A stretch of 37,734 nt of DNA, from NCBI GenBank assembly GCA_016926795.1, contig JAFGNW010000231.1, positions 1 to 37,734 on the forward strand, given 5' to 3'. The notes beneath the pieces are model-generated. The model searched no databases. It was given only the letters and a program-made list of their open reading frames with translations, and was not told the DNA's origin. Both the position numbers and the translations under genes were made by a program. This document shows, piece by piece, positions 26,006 through 37,734 of the stretch. The stretch's first letter is position 1; each line of letters begins with the position of its first letter. Origin of the DNA: Candidatus Zixiibacteriota bacterium. Lineage in GTDB: Bacteria > Zixibacteria > MSB-5A5 > GN15 > FEB-12.

Positions 26006-26812
26006 TTACTTTTCTTCGGAAGGGATCTTGTCCCGGTCAATATCTTTATCTTTGTTCCCGGGAGGTTTGCCGCTTTTGTCCGCGGCCTTTTTCTCTTTCT
26101 TATCCCTTTTCAAACCCGGCGGTTTCTGGTCGTAATGATAGCCGTAATAAGAATAATCATAATAATACGGCAGACTGCCGGTCATGTTGTTGAGAATAAC
26201 TCCCAGCATGCCAAATCCGTTGGATTTGAGAATATCCACCGCCCGCTGCACAACCTCGCGCTGGGTTTCCCCGGCTTTGATAACAAGCACCACCCCGTCG
26301 ACCTCGTTCGCCACGTAGAGAGGGTCCGAGACCGGAATAATCGGGGCGGAATCGATAAAGATCATGTCATAGTAAAATTTCATTTCTTCAACCAGGCGGC
26401 CGATAGCCGGGCCGTTGAAAACCTCGGCCGGGTGGGCGCTGATTTTCCCCGCCGTAATGACATCCAGATTAGCCAGACTGGTTTTTTTTATCACGCTTTT
26501 GGCCGGCACTTCCTCGGACAGAATCTCGTGCAAACCGTGCTGTCTCTCCATCTTGAACAATTTATGAATAACCGGTCGTCGCAGGTCACTGTCGATAATG
26601 ATAGTTTTAAGACCCTTCCTCGCGGCGGTAACCGCTAAAAGCGAGGTGATAGTAGACTTTCCCTCGGATAACATCGACGAGGTAATCAGCACCGCCTTGA
26701 GTTCCTTTTCTTTGGCAGCGTGCTGAAGATTATATAAAAGACGCCGGAACTCGGCGGCAAAAGCGGTCTCCAGGCTGAAATAGTCTATTATCGAAACGGC
26801 GTTTCTGGTCAT
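26006..26812 (-). CDS. BY-type tyrosine kinase (CpsD/CapB-like) with tyrosine cluster
   Basis: A 268-residue cytosolic bacterial tyrosine kinase. The P-loop is SSMLSEGKST (45-54), Walker A' is IDSDLRRP (73-80) and Walker B is IFIDSAP (151-157). A C-terminal tyrosine cluster YYYDYSYYGYHYD (216-228) has eight tyrosines and is the expected autophosphorylation site; a Lys/Asp-rich tail follows. Such kinases control polymerisation and export of capsule or exopolysaccharide, usually with a Wzz-like membrane activator. No Wzz gene occurs in this operon. It lies between the TPR gene (nine bases) and the deacetylase gene (20 bases). Confidence 0.93.
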   Translation of the reverse strand: MTRNAVSIIDYFSLETAFAAEFRRLLYNLQHAAKEKELKAVLITSSMLSEGKSTITSLLAVTAARKGLKTIIIDSDLRRPVIHKLFKMERQHGLHEILSEEVPAKSVIKKTSLANLDVITAGKISAHPAEVFNGPAIGRLVEEMKFYYDMIFIDSAPIIPVSDPLYVANEVDGVVLVIKAGETQREVVQRAVDILKSNGFGMLGVILNNMTGSLPYYYDYSYYGYHYDQKPPGLKRDKKEKKAADKSGKPPGNKDKDIDRDKIPSEEK

Positions 26813-26821
26813 CGTTTATTC

Positions 26822-27943
26822 TTAACCTTTCTCGGCGATTTTTATCAACGCCAGGTTGATATCTTCATAGAGGTTTTCCGCTTCCTCCAGCGCCAGCTTG
26901 ATTTTCGACAGGGCCGGATTGATTTCGTTGGTTTTCCGGTATTCTTCAACCCCTTTCTGCCAGGCCAGGCGCGATTGTTCCAGATAACAGCGCGCTAAAT
27001 CGGCATGCAAATCGACATAACCCGGATTTTTTTCCAATTCCCCTTTTAAATAGGCGATACGCTCGTTCAGGACCTCCTCCGATACCCAGTCGGTCAGGAG
27101 GGCGAATTTCATATAGAAACCGGAAAATTCACGGCGGTAATTTTCTTTCTTGGTTTCCCTGATGCGTTTGAATATGTTCAATGCCCGCGACAGTTCGTAC
27201 TGGTTCAGGGCCTTGATGCCTTCATCGAAGGCCTGACCCTTGAAATTGGCGTATATCAGCGAAGCTTTGTAAAGATAATCGGTTATGCGGGCCAGGTGGC
27301 CGGGCCAGCTCTCACGGTCGGGATTTTTTACGGCTTTTAATATCCAGGCCAACCCGAGATTGAGATAGGCGTCACAATAGTAAAGGTTTATTTCAATAGC
27401 TTTTTTAAATTCGTTGATAGCCTCGTCAACCTCATCATCAGCCAGCAAAGCTTCACCCAGATTGTTGCGATAATCCGCGAAACCGGGTTTTTGTTCGACC
27501 GCCTTACGACCAGCCACGATTGCCCGGTCGATATTGCCCCGGGCCAGCTCGGCCATTCCCAGATAATTGTAACCCTGGTGATGGCTGGGGTCGAGAGTCG
27601 TAGCACTGGTAAACAATGCTTTCGCTTCCCGGTAAAAACCCTTATAGAAAAAAGCGGTTCCCAGGTAATAAGCCATTTTCGAATCACCGGAGGCGATTAC
27701 CTTGCGAAACGACTGGAGCAGGTTCTCGATTTCGTTTTTCTTTTCTTCGTGGGTCATTTTCACCAGCGACAACACCTCGTTGGCACCGATATCCGAAGGA
27801 TGCAGATTATTGATAGTCTCGGTCAGGACCCCGTTGATATAAATCGAGGTGGTAACCGTACCCAGATTGGTATCGTTTACGGTTTGAATCAGATATTCGT
27901 TGTCTTTATCGGCAAGTTTGCTGCTTAAACGATATGTCTCCAT
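26822..27943 (-). CDS. Cytosolic TPR protein of the exopolysaccharide operon
   Basis: A 373-residue protein from the ATG at 27943, which has GGGG seven bases upstream; a TTG at 27958 overlaps that site. There is no signal peptide or membrane segment. Residues 1-70 form a small, beta-rich N-terminal part (TVTTSIYINGVLTETINNL). About five TPR units follow (for example YYLGTAFFYKGFYREAKALF, and AINEFKKAIEINLYYCDAYL), then a helical C-terminal region. It is likely a scaffold for the kinase or export machinery, judged only by its place between the Wza-like gene and the kinase gene. Confidence 0.85.
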   Translation of the reverse strand: METYRLSSKLADKDNEYLIQTVNDTNLGTVTTSIYINGVLTETINNLHPSDIGANEVLSLVKMTHEEKKNEIENLLQSFRKVIASGDSKMAYYLGTAFFYKGFYREAKALFTSATTLDPSHHQGYNYLGMAELARGNIDRAIVAGRKAVEQKPGFADYRNNLGEALLADDEVDEAINEFKKAIEINLYYCDAYLNLGLAWILKAVKNPDRESWPGHLARITDYLYKASLIYANFKGQAFDEGIKALNQYELSRALNIFKRIRETKKENYRREFSGFYMKFALLTDWVSEEVLNERIAYLKGELEKNPGYVDLHADLARCYLEQSRLAWQKGVEEYRKTNEINPALSKIKLALEEAENLYEDINLALIKIAEKG

Positions 27944-27973
27944 TTTAATCCCCGACAAACTGAATATTCTTTT

Positions 27974-28975
27974 TTAAGTTCCCGGTACCGGCTCGGTTGT
28001 TTGCTCTTCCGGTTTAATCAGCTCATATAAGATCACCGCCGAGGTTATCCCGCCAACGAGGGCAACCCAGGTGGAAATACCGCCACTGAAAAAGCCGCTT
28101 CTTTTCTGCGGAATCACGAAGGTGTCCTCGTTTTTCAAAATATATCTGGCCGGGCGACCGGTTTCGACATAATCCTCCAGGTTGACCTGGTAAGACTGAG
28201 CATACTGACCATCCTTGGTGAGGATCCGGGCTTTTTTCAAATTAGCTTCCGGGGTCGGACCGCCTGCCAGGGCGAGGATTTCCAGAAAATCTACATTTTC
28301 CTCAAATTCCACCGGCCCGGGAGTATTAACCGCCCCCACGACGTAAATAACGTTTTTCTTTTCGACCGGCTGAGTGATTTCCGATGAGGTCAGACCGTAC
28401 AATCGCCGGGGGATCTCAATCGTGTCCTGCCGTCCGATTTTGGGCAGGTTCTTCAAATTGCCGGTGGCGATGGCTTCCCTGACGTTGACTATTTCCACCT
28501 GCCCGGCCCGGTCGCCGCCGCGAATTATGGCTACCCGGGAAAGGTCGGCGAACTCCGTTATCCCCCCCGATTCGTTGATTATCGTCCACAGATCGGGAAT
28601 TTCCTCGAACGTTTTTTTGCCCGGCGTCTCCACCTCGCCCGATATGAATACATGATTGTAATTGAATGCTATCACTCTCACTACCGCCTGGGAAATATTC
28701 TTATTCAGGCGGGAGATATTTCGGACGATATCGTTCTGAAGCTCCTCGGTGGTCTTGCCGGCGGCCTCTATCTGACCGATAATATCCAGCGTTATTTTGC
28801 CCTCCAGGCTGACCCGGACGGTAGCGTTTAACTGCTGGTCCTGCCAGAAGCTGACTTCCAGCACGTCTTCGGGACCGATTTTATAATCCGCCGCGATTAA
28901 GTAATTAAAAGCCAACAGAGAAATAAAAAAGGCCACCCAAAGTGTCTTCCTTGACAAAAGCTCTGTTAATCTCAT
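27974..28975 (-). CDS. Wza-like polysaccharide export protein (Poly_export + two SLBB domains)
   Basis: A 333-residue exported protein. The signal peptide (residues 11-28) has no lipobox Cys, unlike E. coli Wza. The Poly_export domain (about 30-105) starts DYKIGPEDVLEVSFWQD. Two SLBB domains follow, marked VFISGEVETPGKKTF (about 109-123) and IYVVGAVNTPGPVEF (about 210-224). Near the C-terminus is a hydrophobic segment (about 302-322, WVALVGGITSAVILYEL), then a short polar tail. It likely forms the outer-membrane or periplasmic export channel. It is first in the four-gene operon; the start has no strong ribosome site. Confidence 0.92.
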   Translation of the reverse strand: MRLTELLSRKTLWVAFFISLLAFNYLIAADYKIGPEDVLEVSFWQDQQLNATVRVSLEGKITLDIIGQIEAAGKTTEELQNDIVRNISRLNKNISQAVVRVIAFNYNHVFISGEVETPGKKTFEEIPDLWTIINESGGITEFADLSRVAIIRGGDRAGQVEIVNVREAIATGNLKNLPKIGRQDTIEIPRRLYGLTSSEITQPVEKKNVIYVVGAVNTPGPVEFEENVDFLEILALAGGPTPEANLKKARILTKDGQYAQSYQVNLEDYVETGRPARYILKNEDTFVIPQKRSGFFSGGISTWVALVGGITSAVILYELIKPEEQTTEPVPGT

Positions 28976-29095: not shown

Positions 29096-30751
29096 TTATT
29101 GAAACAGAACCAGATGTTCCGGGTCATTATAGAGCAGGTACTTGTTCCGACCGGATTCCTTGGCTTTCAAAAGGGCCATATCGGCCGCAAATATAAGCTT
29201 TTCAGTGTCATCGGCATGGTCCGGGTAAATTGCCCCGCCCAGTGAAATAGTGCAGCTGAGGTCTTCATCCAGTTCGTTGATACGGAATTTGGAACTGGAT
29301 ATTTTCAACTGCAAACGGTTCATAAACCGCTTGCAGGTCGCCTGGCCGGCTTCGGGCATAATCACGCAAAATTCATCCCCGCCGTACCGGGCGATGATAT
29401 CGATGGCACGAATCGAACTTCGCAAAATCTGCCCCAGCCGCTTTAATATGGTATCCCCGGCCAGATGGCCGTAGGAATCGTTGATCCTTTTCAAATCGTC
29501 CATGTCGAAAATAATCAGGGCCAGCGAACGCTGGTAACGCTTGGCGCGGTCTATTTCCTCGTGCAGTCGTTTATGGAAATAACGCTGGTTGTAAAGGTCG
29601 GTCAAGCTGTCGGTGTAAGACATCTCCTCGACCCGTTCGTAGGATTCGGCATTTTCCACCAGGTCGAGGGTATGCGGCCGCAGAAGTTCCAGTTGCCGGG
29701 CGATTAGGTGAGGCGACTTTCCCCCGCTCCAGGCCAGCAACCCCGACTGCCGGGAGGAAAGGGGAAACAAAGTAACGTATCTCAAACCGGCTTTTTTCAA
29801 TTCAACAATCAAACCTGTATCAGTTTTTTCTCTTTTGATGAAATTATCGATATCATGAAAGCCGTTCCGGCCGAGTTGCTTGCGCAGCTGTTCGTAAGCC
29901 TCCCTGTCGGGTGCCTCGAGGGTAGCCGAAAGACCCTCCTTAAAAACATTGACCTTGTCGTTTCTTTGCTTGGGCTCGTAAAGATACGCCACCTGTTCGA
30001 TATCCAGTTCCTTCGCAACGGTGTTGATGATTTTCGATACGATCGTTTCCGAATTGCGGTGCCGCACCAGTTTCAGGATATTAAGCGAGGGTTTGACTTC
30101 TTCCCGGACACGCTCCGGGCTCCGGGATGACTGGCTGGTAACCTTCTGCTCCAGCTTGGTGTATCGGGATTCGTGCCACTTGATATGATAAGCGGCCGAG
30201 AGCGATTGAGCCAGGCTGGCCAAAAGGAGATTGAAAGACGGGGTTTTGGTCTCAAAACTGCTCTTAATGAAATAGACGCCGTAAAGATTGTCGCGCCAGA
30301 AGATAGGGAAAAAAACATCAAAGCCGAGTTGGGTCAGTTTCTTGAAAACCGGCTGCGAAATTTGCCCCTCGAGGTGGAGCAATTTCTGCGGCAGGAAAGT
30401 GACCCGAAGCAATTCGGCCAGCGGTTGGCTGAATTTTATCCTGAAATCGCTGCGGTTAAATTTGTTGATGCCGTGATAATAATTCAACTCGAGGAAATTG
30501 CGCTGTTTTCTCAAAAAGACAATTCGTTGGCAGGCAAGGACATCCTTCAGCAAATCGGAGACTTTCCCGGCTACCTGCTGGATTGTGCCTTCGACACTGT
30601 TGGTTCTAAGGAACTCAGAGAATTCCTCCAGTTTCATACGTTTGATTAGGGTTAATTGCTTTTTTTCGTGCCGGATTCTGAAAATGAGCAAAAAGATAAG
30701 AACGACGACCAGTACAATCAGCGCCGCCGTTATGTAGGCCTGGCTAAGCAT
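29096..30751 (-). CDS. Membrane-anchored GAF-GGDEF diguanylate cyclase
   Basis: A 551-residue enzyme that should make the second messenger c-di-GMP. A single N-terminal membrane helix (5-25) is followed by two GAF-like regions (about 40-195 and 225-365) and a GGDEF domain (378-545). The active-site motif GGDEF is at 457-461; the inhibitory-site motif RAID (448-451) sits five residues before it, so product feedback inhibition is predicted. The start is preceded by AAGGGTG. It is a single gene between the STAS gene and the exopolysaccharide operon, making control of that operon's output a reasonable inference. The ligand of the GAF-like regions is unknown. Confidence 0.95.
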   Translation of the reverse strand: MLSQAYITAALIVLVVVLIFLLIFRIRHEKKQLTLIKRMKLEEFSEFLRTNSVEGTIQQVAGKVSDLLKDVLACQRIVFLRKQRNFLELNYYHGINKFNRSDFRIKFSQPLAELLRVTFLPQKLLHLEGQISQPVFKKLTQLGFDVFFPIFWRDNLYGVYFIKSSFETKTPSFNLLLASLAQSLSAAYHIKWHESRYTKLEQKVTSQSSRSPERVREEVKPSLNILKLVRHRNSETIVSKIINTVAKELDIEQVAYLYEPKQRNDKVNVFKEGLSATLEAPDREAYEQLRKQLGRNGFHDIDNFIKREKTDTGLIVELKKAGLRYVTLFPLSSRQSGLLAWSGGKSPHLIARQLELLRPHTLDLVENAESYERVEEMSYTDSLTDLYNQRYFHKRLHEEIDRAKRYQRSLALIIFDMDDLKRINDSYGHLAGDTILKRLGQILRSSIRAIDIIARYGGDEFCVIMPEAGQATCKRFMNRLQLKISSSKFRINELDEDLSCTISLGGAIYPDHADDTEKLIFAADMALLKAKESGRNKYLLYNDPEHLVLFQ

Positions 30752-30830: not shown

Positions 30831-31508
30831 TTAACGACCCCGGGCATAGCGAAAACGGGACCGCTTCTTTAAAAGCCCCTTTTTCTTCAGAATGGCAAAA
30901 ATTTTCCACCAGCCGACAGAATCGGTCAGAGCGTGCCTTTTCAGTTCGTTTTTAATTTCGGATATGGTCAGAAAAGGATCGTCCTGAATGCAACGCAACA
31001 CCAGGATTTCAATATCGACCGTGGAGGAAATATCGGAAAGCCGGCCTTCCCCTTTGCCCGCAACGACGCCCTCGGATTGATTCAAGCCCTCAACGACCGT
31101 TACGCGGGTTACTTCCCGGTCTTTTTTTTTTACGCGGCCTCCGTCAGAACGGGCCGCCTCGAATTTACTCCGGGCCTCGTCCACCGAGTTAAACGCCTGC
31201 AGAACGTTATCGAATTCCAAAAGCTCGTAAATCTCAAAGACGTTGGGTATCATGTTGGCCAGTTTGATATCACCGCCGCGAATACGCAGGTCCTTGATGT
31301 GTGAGATAAAAATGCCCCAGCCGGCGGAAGAAATGTAATCCACACCCGCCAGGTCAATCACGATATTATAGCGCTCCCGTTTTATCAGGGAGTCGATGAC
31401 TCCTTCGAGTTCACTGGCTGTAAGAGTGTCAATAACCCCGTCAATTCGAACTTCGGAGATGTGATTATTGGCGCCGCTTTCGGAAAGTGATATGCTGATA
31501 TTATCCAT
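30831..31508 (-). CDS. STAS-domain protein with C-terminal winged-helix-like extension
   Basis: A 225-residue protein. Residues 1-110 form a STAS (anti-sigma antagonist-like) domain with DLAGVDYISSAGWGIF (52-67); Ser60 or Ser61 is the expected phosphorylation site. Residues about 112-160 are a charged linker, and about 165-225 look like a winged helix (FLTISEIKNELKRHAL, then WWKIFAILKKKGLLKK), ending in a basic RSRFRYARGR. Plain anti-sigma antagonists are only about 110 residues, so the extension is unusual and may bind DNA or protein. It lies directly after the RsbW/RsbU-type fusion gene, its probable partner. Confidence 0.88.
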   Translation of the reverse strand: MDNISISLSESGANNHISEVRIDGVIDTLTASELEGVIDSLIKRERYNIVIDLAGVDYISSAGWGIFISHIKDLRIRGGDIKLANMIPNVFEIYELLEFDNVLQAFNSVDEARSKFEAARSDGGRVKKKDREVTRVTVVEGLNQSEGVVAGKGEGRLSDISSTVDIEILVLRCIQDDPFLTISEIKNELKRHALTDSVGWWKIFAILKKKGLLKKRSRFRYARGR

Positions 31509-31578: not shown

Positions 31579-33630
31579 TTAGTCTTCACGGCGGGAGGAG
31601 GAGGTATCCTCGATATTTTCCGTCTCCGGTAAAGCCGTCATTTCTTCCTTGGCCGGGTCGGTCACAAGGTTATCTGGTACCGACCGGGCCAGAATAAAAG
31701 TAATGTCGTCGGTTTGTTTGACAAAGCCGGCGAAATTGTCTATCTCCTCGACCACCGCCTTGGAGAGATCGGAGATTTTGGCTATCTCACGATGGCTTAA
31801 TTGCCCCTGAATGAATTTTTCCAGCTTCTCCAGACCGTACTGCTGACCTTCCCGGTCCACCGCCTCGGTAATGCCGTCGGTATAAATGAAAAAGATATCT
31901 CCCCGGTTAAGTTCCAGACTGACCTCTTCCAGGCTTTCTTCAAAACCCTGTTCGAACGTGACCGGAAAACCGAGCGGCATGCCGGAGGGATTTACCCGAG
32001 TCAGCCGGTCGGTACGCGACCGGTAATACAGCATGGGATTGTGACCGGCCGAGACCAAATTCAATTTTTTGACCGCCGCGTCGTAAATGGCCAGAAAAAC
32101 GGTAATAAACATACCGGGGGGAATATTCTTAGCCATATAATCGTTGACCAGGCTGAGGGTGGCTTTGGCTGAAAAGGCGTTTTCCGACTGGATGCGAATA
32201 ACCGTTCTAATCATCGACATCACCAGTGAGGCGGGTACACCCTTTCCGGAAACATCAGCCACCACCAGGCAATAGCGGCTGGACCCGATTTCAAAAATAT
32301 CGTACAGGTCACCGCCGACCATCGAGGCCGCCCGGTAAAAAGTATCCACTTCCAGGCCGGGCAGTTCGGGCAGCTGGCGCGGCAGGAGGGTTTTCTGGAT
32401 TTGAGAGGCGACTTCGATTTCTTTAGCCATCTTTTCTCGGGCGATGACGTTTTTCCGGTCGCGGCTGAGCCGGGTCATCATATCGTTCAGGGCGCGGGAG
32501 ATTTCAAAAAATTCATCGGCCCCCTCGAGCGGCAGCTCCGTTTCCAAATCGCCCGAGGTAAACTGGCGTACGCGTCGGGTAATTTTGACGATGGGTTTGA
32601 CGAAGTAATTGGACAACATGTAGATGCCGAGCACACCGATCAGAAGCAGCACCCCCGTCAGAATAATGAATTTCTGTCGCGCCTCGGTCAGTTTTTTATA
32701 AATCGGCGCCGATGAATAGGTGACAAAAACACGGCCCAGATTGCGGTCGCCGACCTTTATCGGTTCCACCAGGTAATTTTCCTGCTGACCGTTGACGGTA
32801 TAGCGCTGGGTCACGTTCAAAAGCTGGATATCGACATACTCCGGGGGGATATACGGCTTGCGCAGGTTGAGAATATCCTCGCTGTGGGCCAGGATTATGC
32901 CGCTGGTATCGGTCAGGACAATCAGTATGAGAATCGGATTGGAGCGGACATAACTGCGAATGAGCTCGTCGAACTCGACATCGCTGCGGCTGTTGATGAT
33001 GTAACCGGCCACCTGTTCGGACATGGAACTGGTCAGGGCTTTGACGGTATCGTCGAGATGCGTGTAAATTTCATCTTTGGTGCGGTCGTTTATATAATAA
33101 AAAGCTCCCCCGATAATCAGGCTGACGATTAAAAAGGTCCAGATTGAGAATTTGACCCGCAGGGTGAACATCCGTCGGAGTATCGACGGTGCGTCGGCGG
33201 CTGTTCCATGAATGCGTTTGATCATGCGGAGTTCGTTGAAACCGGCGGCCGAGATATATTCGACCGAATCCATGATCCGCTGAATCATGTAAAAACCGAG
33301 CCCCCCTTTGCGGCCCGATTCCACCAGCCGCTGCAGGTCGATCTTGCCGGCTCCCTCGGGCTGGAACGAACGCCCGGAATCAATCAGGGAAAAGGCCATC
33401 ATTTTTTTATAGATAACGATGCGAAGGCGAATAGTGCCCTTCTCATAAAGATAGGCATGGCGGATAATATTAGTCGCCCCCTCCTCGATAGCCAGGAGAA
33501 CCGCCGTGATATCCTTGCGGCTCATGCTGGCGGTAGCGCAGCTTTCTTTGACAATCTGCCGGATATTGTCAAGATATTTATCCTCGGCCAAAAACTCGGC
33601 ATCGATCTCTTTTATGGGGCGACGGAACAT
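31579..33630 (-). CDS. RsbW-like ATPase domain fused to a membrane-bound RsbU-like phosphatase
   Basis: A 683-residue signalling protein. Residues 1-140 are a GHKL ATPase domain of the RsbW/SpoIIAB type: EEGATNIIRH (49-58), DSGRSF (84-89) and RKGGLGFYMIQ (107-117). Membrane helix 163-180, an extracytoplasmic sensor region (181-320) and helix 322-343 follow, then a HAMP domain (341-395), a helix and a SpoIIE/PP2C phosphatase (425-650) with metal-binding Asp in GGDLYD (439-444), VADVSGKG (457-464), YTDGITEA (583-590) and QTDDITF (639-645). Both ends face the cytoplasm. The neighbouring STAS protein is a likely substrate of kinase and phosphatase. No sigma factor gene is nearby. Confidence 0.93.
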   Translation of the reverse strand: MFRRPIKEIDAEFLAEDKYLDNIRQIVKESCATASMSRKDITAVLLAIEEGATNIIRHAYLYEKGTIRLRIVIYKKMMAFSLIDSGRSFQPEGAGKIDLQRLVESGRKGGLGFYMIQRIMDSVEYISAAGFNELRMIKRIHGTAADAPSILRRMFTLRVKFSIWTFLIVSLIIGGAFYYINDRTKDEIYTHLDDTVKALTSSMSEQVAGYIINSRSDVEFDELIRSYVRSNPILILIVLTDTSGIILAHSEDILNLRKPYIPPEYVDIQLLNVTQRYTVNGQQENYLVEPIKVGDRNLGRVFVTYSSAPIYKKLTEARQKFIILTGVLLLIGVLGIYMLSNYFVKPIVKITRRVRQFTSGDLETELPLEGADEFFEISRALNDMMTRLSRDRKNVIAREKMAKEIEVASQIQKTLLPRQLPELPGLEVDTFYRAASMVGGDLYDIFEIGSSRYCLVVADVSGKGVPASLVMSMIRTVIRIQSENAFSAKATLSLVNDYMAKNIPPGMFITVFLAIYDAAVKKLNLVSAGHNPMLYYRSRTDRLTRVNPSGMPLGFPVTFEQGFEESLEEVSLELNRGDIFFIYTDGITEAVDREGQQYGLEKLEKFIQGQLSHREIAKISDLSKAVVEEIDNFAGFVKQTDDITFILARSVPDNLVTDPAKEEMTALPETENIEDTSSSRRED

Positions 33631-33679: not shown

Positions 33680-35515
33680 CTATTCGGTTTTTTCCGACTC
33701 CAGACGCAGCCGGGCTTGTTCAATATTGTGGAGCGTGTTAACGTTGCCGGGGTAAACCTCCAGAACCTTTTCCCAGGCGTCGATTGCTTTCCGGTAATCT
33801 TTGTTGCGCATATGCCGGATACCTTCCAGATACAGGTTCCAGATGTTTTTGTCTTTCTGGAGGTCCTCGAGAGTGGAAGGTTTGGTATGGGCTTCTTTAA
33901 TTTTCTCCATGTATTCCAGGGCCACCGGTTCATGGCTGTCAATTTTCAGTACCGTTTCGAAGCGCGACCGCGCTGCGTCGTACTTACCTTGTTTGAAAAG
34001 GGAGATGCCAAGATTTAGCTGCTCGGACAGGTTAAGACTCGTCAGCGCCCTTTCCCGGGCCTGCCGGGCTTCAACGTTGTCCGGTTCGAGGTCAAGGATA
34101 CGGTTATAGGCTTCGATGGCTTGGACAAGCCTACCCTCCGCTTGAGCCTGGCGGGCCGTAGTCCAGTTTATCTCTATCTCGGAACTGATGGCGTTGTCGA
34201 TATCTTTCCTCAGTTTTTCGGCACGGGTATTGTCCGGTTCAATCTCAAAAATCAACTCCAGAATATCCCGGGCGGCCGCATAATATTTTTTCTCGTAGAA
34301 CTGTACCGCCTGGCTGTAATACCGGTCGATGAACTGCTCCCGTTCCCGATTGGCCGTACGCAGTAGGTTCTGCTGCTCCATTTCCAGACGCCGGGCCTGC
34401 TCGATAGAGGCAATCGTTTCCAGGACTTCCTGGTTATCGGAATCATACTCCAGCGATTGATGATAATAGGTCAGGGCGGAATCCAACTGGAACTGGCGGA
34501 AGAAATAATCGGCTTTGGTTTTGAGTCGCATGAATTCCCGCTGCCGTTCGTCCACCACCACTTCCTTCACCGGTTCCGGGGCATATAACCGCCGCTTCTT
34601 CTCCATCCGCTCCGCCGTCGAGGAACCGATAAGCACCGCCAGGGAAAAATTATGGCTGTCTTCGATATAATCCATCACCTTGTAGGCGTAATCGAATTTA
34701 AATCGATGTAATTTCAAGCCGGCTCCGAAAGACAGGTTGTCCCGGTCATAACCGGCTCTCAGGATATAACTGTCATAAAAAGCGAGCCGGGCGCCGACGT
34801 GAATTTTTACATCGCGCTGTTCGTGTTTTTCCAGGTCCAGGGACGCTGTCAGGCGGGTCTGCCCGATAAAGTCAATATCCCTGACCGCCAGGCCGCCCGT
34901 GAAGGAATTCGGCGTGGTTTCGGTATAACCCTTCAGTTCCAGTTGAGCGGGGATAATATCGCGGGCGATAAAGCCCAGCGAAAGATGTTTATACAACCGC
35001 CAATCCAGAGCGATGTCGGCGCCCACCCCGTAGACGGAGTTGTCGTCCAGTGACTGGTTCACCACTTTCAGGCTGGCTCCTATCGAAAGACCTTTAAACA
35101 GGCGGTGACCGTAGGCAAGGATGAACTGCGAGTGCGAATAACCGAAAGTATACTGTTCTTCGAAATCGATGGTCCTGACAATATCATCGGTGCCGACGCG
35201 CATATAACCCAGACCCACCCCGCTTTTATCGGAGATGGGATAGACCCAGGAACCGAAATTATACAGGGTTCCCTCGAACATAACGGTGTGCATCAGGGAG
35301 AGTTCCTGGTAATCCAGGCGGGTCAAGCCGGCCGGGTTGTAATAAACGGCGGCGGCATCATTGGCCAGGGCGGTATAACCGCCACCCATGCCCAGTGAGG
35401 AAGCTCCGGCGCCGAGAATGAAAGGGGTTTCCTGACCGGCGTCGCCGGCCTGCACCGGCACGATAGCGGCCGCGACTACAAACAATCCCAGAAATGTAAG
35501 CAGCGTTCTTCTCAT
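33680..35515 (-). CDS. PorV/PorQ-family-like outer-membrane protein with C-terminal TPR region
   Basis: A 611-residue exported protein. The signal peptide ends VPVQA (residue 23). Residues about 30-300 resemble the PorV/PorQ/FadL-like barrel family (ASSLGMGGGYTALANDAAAV, then YYNPAGLTRLDYQEL). Residues about 310-611 are soluble and contain six or so TPR-like repeats (ALTYYHQSLEYDSDNQEVLE, then AIEAYNRILDLEPDNVEA), which should lie in the periplasm. PorV in Bacteroidetes works in type IX secretion, carrying substrates with C-terminal signals. The start overlaps the stop of the preceding gene by four bases (ATGA), linking it to a secreted protein with a FlgD-like C-terminus. Confidence 0.87.
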   Translation of the reverse strand: MRRTLLTFLGLFVVAAAIVPVQAGDAGQETPFILGAGASSLGMGGGYTALANDAAAVYYNPAGLTRLDYQELSLMHTVMFEGTLYNFGSWVYPISDKSGVGLGYMRVGTDDIVRTIDFEEQYTFGYSHSQFILAYGHRLFKGLSIGASLKVVNQSLDDNSVYGVGADIALDWRLYKHLSLGFIARDIIPAQLELKGYTETTPNSFTGGLAVRDIDFIGQTRLTASLDLEKHEQRDVKIHVGARLAFYDSYILRAGYDRDNLSFGAGLKLHRFKFDYAYKVMDYIEDSHNFSLAVLIGSSTAERMEKKRRLYAPEPVKEVVVDERQREFMRLKTKADYFFRQFQLDSALTYYHQSLEYDSDNQEVLETIASIEQARRLEMEQQNLLRTANREREQFIDRYYSQAVQFYEKKYYAAARDILELIFEIEPDNTRAEKLRKDIDNAISSEIEINWTTARQAQAEGRLVQAIEAYNRILDLEPDNVEARQARERALTSLNLSEQLNLGISLFKQGKYDAARSRFETVLKIDSHEPVALEYMEKIKEAHTKPSTLEDLQKDKNIWNLYLEGIRHMRNKDYRKAIDAWEKVLEVYPGNVNTLHNIEQARLRLESEKTE

Positions 35516-37734
35516 TTCATCACCGCCACTTTCATGCGGGCTTCTTCCCCGGTGGCCAGGATTTTCAGAATCGCAACATATACACCGTTATAGACCATAT
35601 CGCCGTTGTTGTTACGGCCGTCCCAGATGATTTCGTTTAGCTGGCCGACCGTACCGCTCCCTTCCGGGATTTCCCGGGCATAAACCTCTTCCCCGATCAG
35701 GGAGAATATCCGAAACTCGATTTTACTGGCTTCCGACAGGAAATAACGAAAATCAGCCGGGCCATCGTACGGGTTGAAGGGGTTATTTTCAATTTTGAAC
35801 GATGTTCCCAGTGTACGACCGGCGGTTACATAAGTCTCCGATAACAGGGTCGAATCCTCACTGTCGGAGGTAATGCAGATGGTGTCATCGGCCAGGTAAT
35901 CGTCGATGAAACTGGCATTTATAACACACTTGTCCAGGCGAACGGAAAAAGCTTCTTCTACCGGCTCCTTCAATTTGGTTTTGAAAACGATCGTTCTTTG
36001 AACCGAAGCGGGAAGTATAAAATCGGAAAAATATAAAACAAGTTTTTCCTGACCCGCGACGGCGGTCGTAAGTTTTTGTTCTCCCTCAAAGAAACCGGTA
36101 TTACCGACCTCGATTACCGAACGCACACTTATGGGTTGACCCTTGCTGTCAGCCAGGAAAACGGTTATGTCCTCGAGTAGCATATCGGTTATCGATGAGG
36201 TACCGGTGTTGGTCAGTTCCAGTTCAAAGAGGTCGCTGTAACCGCCCGAGGTGACGACATCGGCGGTGGCCCGGGGTTTTATATAAAGCTCAGCGTCCAG
36301 CGAAGCTATTTTTACCGATAATTGAAAAGCGGTATCGCCTATCTGCGCCGGCAGCCCGGTATTGATGTCCCGCGGCCGTTCGGTCAGAACCAGGCTGAGC
36401 ACCGCCGTGGTGTCCAGGTCGGGCGCTACCATGCCGATTTTAAGCGTTACGGTACTGGATATATTGCCCGTCAACGGATCGGCTATCCCCAGGTCTACAC
36501 CGCCCGAGGAAAAACGGTACCGCCCGGCCGATGTACCCGCCTGGCCCAGATTGGAAAGGTTCACGTTCAGGACGAAAATATCCCCCGGCTGCACCAGGCC
36601 GTCGACAATGCCCTCGGTATTGTACGACAGCAGCAACCGCGCCGGTTCCTCGATTACGATGATTTCGATATCATCCAGGGGCGGCAGCTCCTCGACGTTT
36701 TTGGATATAATCTCCACCTGGAAGACTTCGTTGATATTCACGTTTTCATCGGCGGTGATATCGAAATAAAATTCGGCCGTATCGAATGCCGGGATATGGG
36801 GCACGACGTGTCCGGGAGTGAAGTCGGAGTTGCCATCGGTGAAAAGATTCAGCTCCAGGTTGTTGACCTCGATATCGGATTGGTTGACCACCCGGCAGCG
36901 CAGTTGAAACTGTTGTTCGATATTCACCCGTGGCCGGTTGGGCAGGATGGCCGTCAGGGAAACAATCTGAACGGTGGGCAGTTCGGTCACCGCCACCGTC
37001 TGACCGCCGAAATTGGTCGTGAATTTTAGATAGTTGGCCGACCCGGCCTGGCGGTATCCGAACCAGGCGGTGACCGTCAGGTTTTCACCCATCTGGTTGA
37101 TGGGGATGAAAAGCTGTTCGGAGGTGATTTCATTGACACCTTCGTTGAGTATATTCAACGGTACTTTCAGATTGACGGTAGCGGAGAAATCGACGCCGGT
37201 AACGGTAAAGAGGGTACTCTCCGGTTGAATTTCCAGGAAGGAGACTGCGGAAAGGTCGATATCGAAAGTGAAGGAAATGTCGGCTCCCCCGGAAACCTCC
37301 GTAGGTGTCAGCGACCCTTCGATATAAGCCAGTGAAGCCGGCGCCAGCAACGCGATTGAATCGGGATAGAGATTTTCCAGGTTGAAAATATTGCCTCCGG
37401 ATATAAGCTTGTAATCCATCCGGACGAAATAATTTCCAGGGTCCAGACCGGCGGCGGTGTCAATCACGGCTCGTAAGCCGGAATAAGAAATCACTCCCCC
37501 GACAAAGTCATCGTAAACGGGAGCGCCCCTGTAAATGGTTGTCAGCACCTCACCTCCGGGAGCGGTGGCCAGTTGAATCGTTAAGTCGGTACTGTCAATC
37601 TGGCCGGGGAAATCGACAGCAGCGACATCAAACGCCACTTCGAAAGATACCCCGGGATAGACCGTATCCGGGACCAGGGAATTATCGACCACATCAAAAG
37701 TCGCCAGTTCGTAAACGATAACCGGAATATGCAG
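35512..37734 (-). CDS. Large secreted CARDB-like repeat protein with FlgD-like C-terminal domain (5' end beyond window)
   Basis: The frame stays open to the right edge, giving 740 visible residues without a start; the GTG at 37692 lies inside the frame and is probably not the start. The product consists of Ig-like/CARDB-like beta domains (for example VQIVSLTAILPNRPRVNIEQ, and LNVNLSNLGQAGTSAGRYRF), acidic and poor in Cys. The last 90 or so residues (NNPFNPYDGP ... IIWDGRNNNGDMVYNGVYVA ... MKVAVMK) match FlgD-like C-terminal domains used as sorting or anchoring signals. It is therefore secreted or surface displayed. Its stop overlaps the start of the PorV-like gene, suggesting a shared function. 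Confidence 0.87.
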   Translation of the reverse strand: MHIPVIVYELATFDVVDNSLVPDTVYPGVSFEVAFDVAAVDFPGQIDSTDLTIQLATAPGGEVLTTIYRGAPVYDDFVGGVISYSGLRAVIDTAAGLDPGNYFVRMDYKLISGGNIFNLENLYPDSIALLAPASLAYIEGSLTPTEVSGGADISFTFDIDLSAVSFLEIQPESTLFTVTGVDFSATVNLKVPLNILNEGVNEITSEQLFIPINQMGENLTVTAWFGYRQAGSANYLKFTTNFGGQTVAVTELPTVQIVSLTAILPNRPRVNIEQQFQLRCRVVNQSDIEVNNLELNLFTDGNSDFTPGHVVPHIPAFDTAEFYFDITADENVNINEVFQVEIISKNVEELPPLDDIEIIVIEEPARLLLSYNTEGIVDGLVQPGDIFVLNVNLSNLGQAGTSAGRYRFSSGGVDLGIADPLTGNISSTVTLKIGMVAPDLDTTAVLSLVLTERPRDINTGLPAQIGDTAFQLSVKIASLDAELYIKPRATADVVTSGGYSDLFELELTNTGTSSITDMLLEDITVFLADSKGQPISVRSVIEVGNTGFFEGEQKLTTAVAGQEKLVLYFSDFILPASVQRTIVFKTKLKEPVEEAFSVRLDKCVINASFIDDYLADDTICITSDSEDSTLLSETYVTAGRTLGTSFKIENNPFNPYDGPADFRYFLSEASKIEFRIFSLIGEEVYAREIPEGSGTVGQLNEIIWDGRNNNGDMVYNGVYVAILKILATGEEARMKVAVMK

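Follow-up and report, generated by a model that had tools for sequence, protein, structure and literature searches.

Can the opposing kinase and phosphatase of a partner switch be carried by one membrane receptor, and if so, what would such a receptor control? This question is raised by a locus in the window, which is the whole stretch of DNA analysed here (37,734 nucleotides) from a Candidatus Zixiibacteriota assembly of 3.29 Mb in 285 contigs. A preliminary description proposed that an RsbW-type kinase-like domain and a PP2C phosphatase domain lie at the two ends of one receptor and act in opposite directions on the STAS protein encoded next door. Sequence and gene context support that interpretation. 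The same description made no use of the adjacent genes for a diguanylate cyclase and for polysaccharide, or of a helix-turn-helix-like domain in the STAS protein; both are considered below. The features of the locus are collected in Table 1.

Table 1. Features of the receptor locus, in the order of the minus strand (positions in the window).
Feature	Position	Strand	Evidence
Large secreted-type protein	35512-37692	-	
UPF0164-like (PorV-like) beta-barrel and TPR protein, conserved upstream neighbour	33680-35515	-	Pfam, synteny
Receptor ORF, 683 aa	31579-33630	-	ORF, Pfam, residue conservation, AlphaFold model, fold matches
Predicted RsbW-type kinase domain, N-terminal; E50/N54/D84/G86/G109-G112 intact	33217-33591	-	Pfam, conservation, RsbW alignment
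Predicted PP2C/SpoIIE phosphatase domain, C-terminal; metal Asp intact	31684-32280	-	Pfam, conservation, fold
STAS protein, 225 aa, predicted substrate (Ser61, with Ser60); HTH-like C-terminal domain at aa ~163-225	30831-31508	-	Pfam, conservation, model
C-terminal four-helix domain of the STAS protein	30834-31031	-	
Promoter-like sequence	30813-30786	-	
GGDEF protein, 551 aa, predicted diguanylate cyclase, R448xxD451 inhibitory-site motif; candidate STAS target	29096-30751	-	Pfam, motif, synteny
Polysaccharide export protein (Poly_export/SLBB, Wza-like), conserved downstream neighbour	27974-28975	-	Pfam, synteny
TPR protein, conserved neighbour	26822-27958	-	Pfam, synteny
BY-kinase-like P-loop ATPase (Wzc/CpsD-like; ParA/AAA_31 matches), conserved neighbour	26006-26812	-	Pfam, synteny

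Architecture and conserved residues of the receptor

From the N- to the C-terminus, a Pfam scan together with an AlphaFold model gave the order HATPase_c_2 (RsbW type), transmembrane helix, Cache-like sensor, transmembrane helix, HAMP, signalling helix and SpoIIE/PP2C. HATPase_c_2 (residues 14-138, E = 1e-21), HAMP (residues 339-389, E = 1.9e-11) and SpoIIE (residues 451-649, E = 6.5e-42) all scored over their curated cut-offs, whereas sCache_3_2 at residues 192-318 was sub-threshold (17.3 bits against a cut-off of 28.4) and reached 27.9 bits against the same cut-off in one relative. The two transmembrane helices were assigned to residues ~155-175 and ~321-339, and hydropathy of a close relative (L119) placed hydrophobic helices flanking the sensor at 155-173 and 321-339. 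In the model (pLDDT 77, from a 13-sequence alignment), a GHKL-like fold is followed by one long helix at 157-212, then by an alpha/beta domain and by another long helix (308-358) that runs into HAMP; beyond this lie the signalling helix (372-415) and the PP2C fold. The two long helices match the hydrophobic ones. The alpha/beta domain between the two long helices corresponds to the sensor region. No Response_reg match was found in the Pfam scan of the receptor. The preliminary description of this receptor was borne out in each detail that was checked.

Among solved structures, B. subtilis RsbW (6m36) is nearest in sequence to the N-terminal domain, and the N-box (E50/N54), the G1 box (D84-x-G86) and the G2 box (G109-G112) align with it. 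Residues E50, N54, D84, G86, R107 and G109-G112 were found without variation in all 66 orthologues, so that loss of the ATP-binding residues was observed in none of them. The fold, the catalytic Glu, the Mg-binding Asn and the G1 and G2 boxes place this domain among the predicted kinases of the RsbW/SpoIIAB-type GHKL family. In the phosphatase, G440, D441, D459, G462, D585 and G586 were also invariant in the 66 orthologues and D641/D642 were kept in 65, and a Foldseek search with the receptor model matched SpoIIE, SiaA-PP2C (target TM-score 0.84) and Rv1364c (3ke6). This fold with its metal-binding Asp residues is that expected of a SpoIIE/RsbU-type PP2C phosphatase. Because the catalytic residues are kept across the 66 orthologues, neither enzyme half is decaying; the boxes named in the preliminary description are invariant and its metal Asp residues nearly so.

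The STAS protein as predicted substrate

The STAS domain of the neighbouring protein scored over its Pfam cut-off. In its motif YISSAGWGIF, residues S60, S61, A62, G63, W64 and G65 were invariant in 57/57 orthologues, including both serines that had been singled out earlier. In an alignment with RsbV, S61 falls on Ser56, which is phosphorylated in RsbV, and S60 falls on the preceding Asp. The model is nearest to TM1442, RsbV and SpoIIAA-type folds (1vc1, 6m36, 1th8), and a STAS fold with a phosphorylatable serine marks the protein as one of the RsbV/SpoIIAA anti-sigma-antagonist type and as a putative substrate.

The STAS gene lies directly downstream of the receptor gene in Calditrichota and Krumholzibacteriia as well. 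In Latescibacterota (L121 5974-10377), a single chain of 1467 residues has three STAS domains and an HTH region in addition to kinase, sensor, HAMP and phosphatase. No other indirect evidence points more strongly to STAS as the substrate of both enzymes. From these data we infer that the two enzymes of the receptor, with the activities predicted from their residues, share the STAS protein as substrate, and it is highly probable that the receptor acts on the adjacent STAS protein.

Gene context and co-occurrence

The receptor gene is separated by 70 bp from the STAS gene and the latter by 79 bp from the GGDEF gene, and the neighbours all lie on the same strand, with a polysaccharide deacetylase gene next after the Wzc/CpsD-like ATPase. 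The order OMP/TPR-receptor-STAS-GGDEF-Wza-TPR-Wzc was held in most of the 40 loci examined, which belong to many families of the class. In most relatives, the second gene upstream of the receptor encodes a large secreted-type protein with a weak CHU_C match at its C-terminus. A promoter-like TTGACA-16-TAAATT lies between the STAS gene and the GGDEF gene, and the cyclase gene may have a promoter of its own.

Orthologues were counted at E<=1e-100 in 132 genomes of the class, which belongs to the candidate phylum Zixiibacteriota. Full-length receptor orthologues were found in 95 of these genomes (60 of the 78 of good quality), and since the same architecture recurs so widely it is not a product of chance. 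In a scan of named genomes, the nearest named relative among the matches listed was that of L119, also a Candidatus Zixiibacteriota (54% identity). Receptor and STAS gene co-occur (91/4/15/22, 91 genomes carrying both; Fisher p = 1e-11, a statistic that ignores relatedness); of the 15 genomes with a STAS orthologue but no receptor at this threshold, some are incomplete or divergent. The preliminary description has a STAS gene next to the receptor, and this was borne out in 79 of the 91 genomes that carry both, so that neither of the two checks it set, on ATP-binding residues and on this neighbourhood, refutes it. By our reading, contig breaks may account for four of the 12 exceptions, in which the assemblies are fragmented and the two genes fall on separate contigs; the other eight are better supported as real separations.

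As an example of such rearrangements, five genomes of family f2 (L197-L201) have a full-length receptor while the STAS orthologue is encoded elsewhere, downstream of a response-regulator gene whose product is an NtrC-like sigma-54 activator in L197, the one scanned with Pfam. With STAS outside the operon in the f2 genomes examined, the three genes need not be co-expressed, although receptor and GGDEF genes are still together in all three f2 loci that were read completely. In two other genomes it is the receptor that has moved away, with the STAS gene staying beside the GGDEF and export genes. These rearrangements tie the receptor, STAS and GGDEF proteins together. The receptor has other neighbours in three distant genomes (f17, f18).

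Output of the switch and alternative readings

In the GGDEF protein, the GG(D/E)E and RxxD motifs were kept in 33/33 sampled sequences. No member of the sigma-B/F/G family scored over its curated cut-off in 16 genomes, where matches were found below the cut-off only, and a classical sigma output is not favoured. Because the known analogues regulate cyclases or biofilm and no sigma-B/F/G member passed the cut-off, we prefer an output through c-di-GMP and polysaccharide. That the diguanylate cyclase itself is this output has, in our estimate, an even chance.

The C-terminal domain of the STAS protein is a conserved four-helix domain of ~60 residues with a basic tail. In a profile search of the PDB, which gave weak matches only, it resembled the DNA-binding domain of Sleeping Beauty (E = 0.01), and the HTH_21/HTH_Tnp families matched it below their Pfam cut-offs. 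It forms a separate small ORF in several members of f1, the family to which the window belongs (L042 10145-10390, L044 9649-9957 and L045 6870-7136). A homologous domain was found at the C-terminus of the receptor in distant Zixiibacteriota, KSB1, Latescibacterota, Calditrichota and Krumholzibacteriia (L067, L072, L120-L125), where it is preceded in at least two relatives by a region recognisable to Pfam as HTH_23/28/29. A single profile comparison of the STAS-borne with the receptor-borne domain gave a probability of 96.6% (E = 6e-10). The domain may serve in DNA binding or in docking between enzyme and substrate, as both roles fit. It is rather doubtful that, throughout the class, a STAS protein with its own transposase-type HTH is switched by the receptor's opposing enzymes to bind DNA or to dock, and so brings control of c-di-GMP together with that of polysaccharide, with the related domain on the enzyme in many relatives; we know of no described partner switch with such an output.

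These observations bear on the possibility that the output is transcriptional and lies in the STAS protein: its HTH-like domain would bind DNA, switched by phosphorylation of the STAS half through the receptor. The conserved helical domain with its basic tail, the likeness to Sleeping Beauty and the HTH families, and the presence of the domain on the f2 STAS orthologues beside the NtrC-like regulator would all fit a DNA-binding protein. However, the matches are weak, the domain stands as a separate ORF in parts of f1, and docking would explain equally well why a related domain is borne by a membrane-bound enzyme in other families. Such a role would also leave the diguanylate cyclase next door unexplained, and we regard it as unlikely.

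A classical arrangement, with the kinase domain as an anti-sigma factor that keeps a sigma factor at the membrane until the STAS protein is dephosphorylated, would agree with the match of this domain to the anti-sigma factors RsbW and SpoIIAB, but it is improbable given the sigma-B/F/G result in the 16 genomes and a window in which no sigma gene adjoins the receptor. More improbable still is a receptor that works as a phosphatase alone, with a GHKL domain that merely docks STAS or nucleotide while a stand-alone RsbW-like protein is the real kinase. The host genome does contain three stand-alone HATPase_c_2 proteins outside this locus; each, however, lies in its own cluster of separate PP2C, kinase and STAS genes, of which there are three, and the catalytic Glu and Mg-binding Asn, invariant in 66/66 orthologues, would not be expected of a pure docking domain. 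Gene context and fusions support partner switching, in which a kinase and a phosphatase would act on one STAS protein with changing binding partners.

Comparison with known partner switches

The contrast drawn earlier with the classical system, where RsbW and RsbU are separate proteins, stands for this fusion, but the novelty that it implied is too large, as fusions are known in SypE and Rv1364c. SypE of Vibrio fischeri has an N-terminal serine kinase and a C-terminal PP2C around a regulatory domain and acts on the STAS protein SypA (PMC3610818; PMC8256260) to govern biofilm formation, beside a polysaccharide locus (PMC3610818). The positions of kinase and phosphatase, the (here predicted) STAS target and the polysaccharide locus are common to both. 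As a response regulator, SypE has a REC domain in its middle, whereas the centre of the present receptor is a two-helix Cache-like/HAMP membrane sensor. A dual response regulator of the SypE type was therefore rejected for lack of a central REC, and the receptor follows the SypE layout with a membrane sensor in place of the receiver.

In Pseudomonas aeruginosa, SiaABCD unites the phosphatase SiaA, the kinase SiaB, the antagonist-like SiaC and the diguanylate cyclase SiaD in one operon (PMC7647112; PMC7278518), and SiaC acts on SiaD (PMC7647112). The same four functions are predicted from one operon here, and the PP2C model matches SiaA-PP2C. In SiaABCD the two enzymes are separate proteins and Thr68 is the phosphorylated residue of SiaC, whereas here the enzymes are fused and the predicted substrate is a canonical STAS protein; identity with the SiaABCD module was rejected on these grounds and on a SiaA model score of 66 of the 700 bits required. 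HsbR of the same species is both kinase and phosphatase for the STAS protein HsbA, which binds the diguanylate cyclase HsbD (PMC5085249). One protein with both activities on a STAS protein and a cyclase partner would thus be common to the two systems, but HsbR is controlled by phosphorelay via a receiver domain while the present receptor has its own extracytoplasmic sensor.

Rv1364c of Mycobacterium tuberculosis has RsbU, RsbW and STAS-type domains in one chain (PMC12143880). Both enzymes are fused there too and its PP2C half matches; unlike the window receptor, it has a PAS sensor, a kinase C-terminal to the phosphatase and a fused substrate. The kinase-sensor-phosphatase layout is therefore already known from SypE around a receiver, fusion of both enzymes from Rv1364c, and a link between switch and cyclase from SiaABCD. 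What is new is the membrane Cache/HAMP version, the class-wide operon and the HTH-like domain common to the substrate and, in relatives, the enzyme. Among the papers available to the search, none was found on a transmembrane kinase-HAMP-phosphatase fusion or on partner switching in Zixibacteria.

Distribution and origin of the fusions

Among the matches listed, the order with the kinase at the N-terminus was found in at least Zixiibacteriota, KSB1, Latescibacterota, Calditrichota and Krumholzibacteriia, the TM-PP2C-kinase order in at least Bacillota, Spirochaetota and others, and separate genes in Ignavibacteriota. The TM-HAMP-PP2C-HATPase fusions of Bacillota, Spirochaetota and others likewise combine a membrane sensor with both enzymes, but their kinase is C-terminal, on the side of the phosphatase, and belongs to the other part of the kinase tree. 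In that tree, which was built on few columns and is unsure in its deep forks, a well-supported split divides N-terminal from C-terminal fusions, and separate genes occur in both parts. Since the two fusion orders fall across this split, they are best read as having arisen independently.

Some variants were also seen in these phyla. Ignavibacteria/Melioribacter clusters (L155, L165, L167, L174, L193) have PP2C, STAS, a stand-alone RsbW-like kinase and two further PP2C genes in a row. The KSB1 receptor (L120 5998-9537) has a TPR array after its HTH region, and two further STAS genes follow the L121 fusion.

Proposed mechanism and implications

We propose a membrane-bound two-way switch. The N-terminal GHKL domain would phosphorylate the product of the next gene downstream, the STAS protein, at Ser61, and the C-terminal PP2C domain would take the phosphate off again, while the two-helix Cache-like sensor and HAMP would hold both enzymes in one dimeric receptor. 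A signal bound outside the membrane would shift the kinase/phosphatase balance, and most likely the phosphatase, coupled to HAMP, is the enzyme that is gated. Depending on its phosphorylation, the STAS protein would control the diguanylate cyclase encoded beside it and, by way of this cyclase, the polysaccharide-export genes of the locus; the precedents differ in which form of the STAS protein is active. Taken as a whole, we consider this chain probable on the sequence data.

The two fusion orders look independent, which suggests that coupling of kinase and phosphatase activities has been selected for. If the proposal is true, the receptor would be a clean natural case in which one outside signal governs the addition as well as the removal of a phospho-mark, the opposing enzymes being fixed 1:1 at either end of a single transmembrane protein. 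The proposal also predicts how c-di-GMP and surface polysaccharide may be controlled in an uncultured bacterial phylum.
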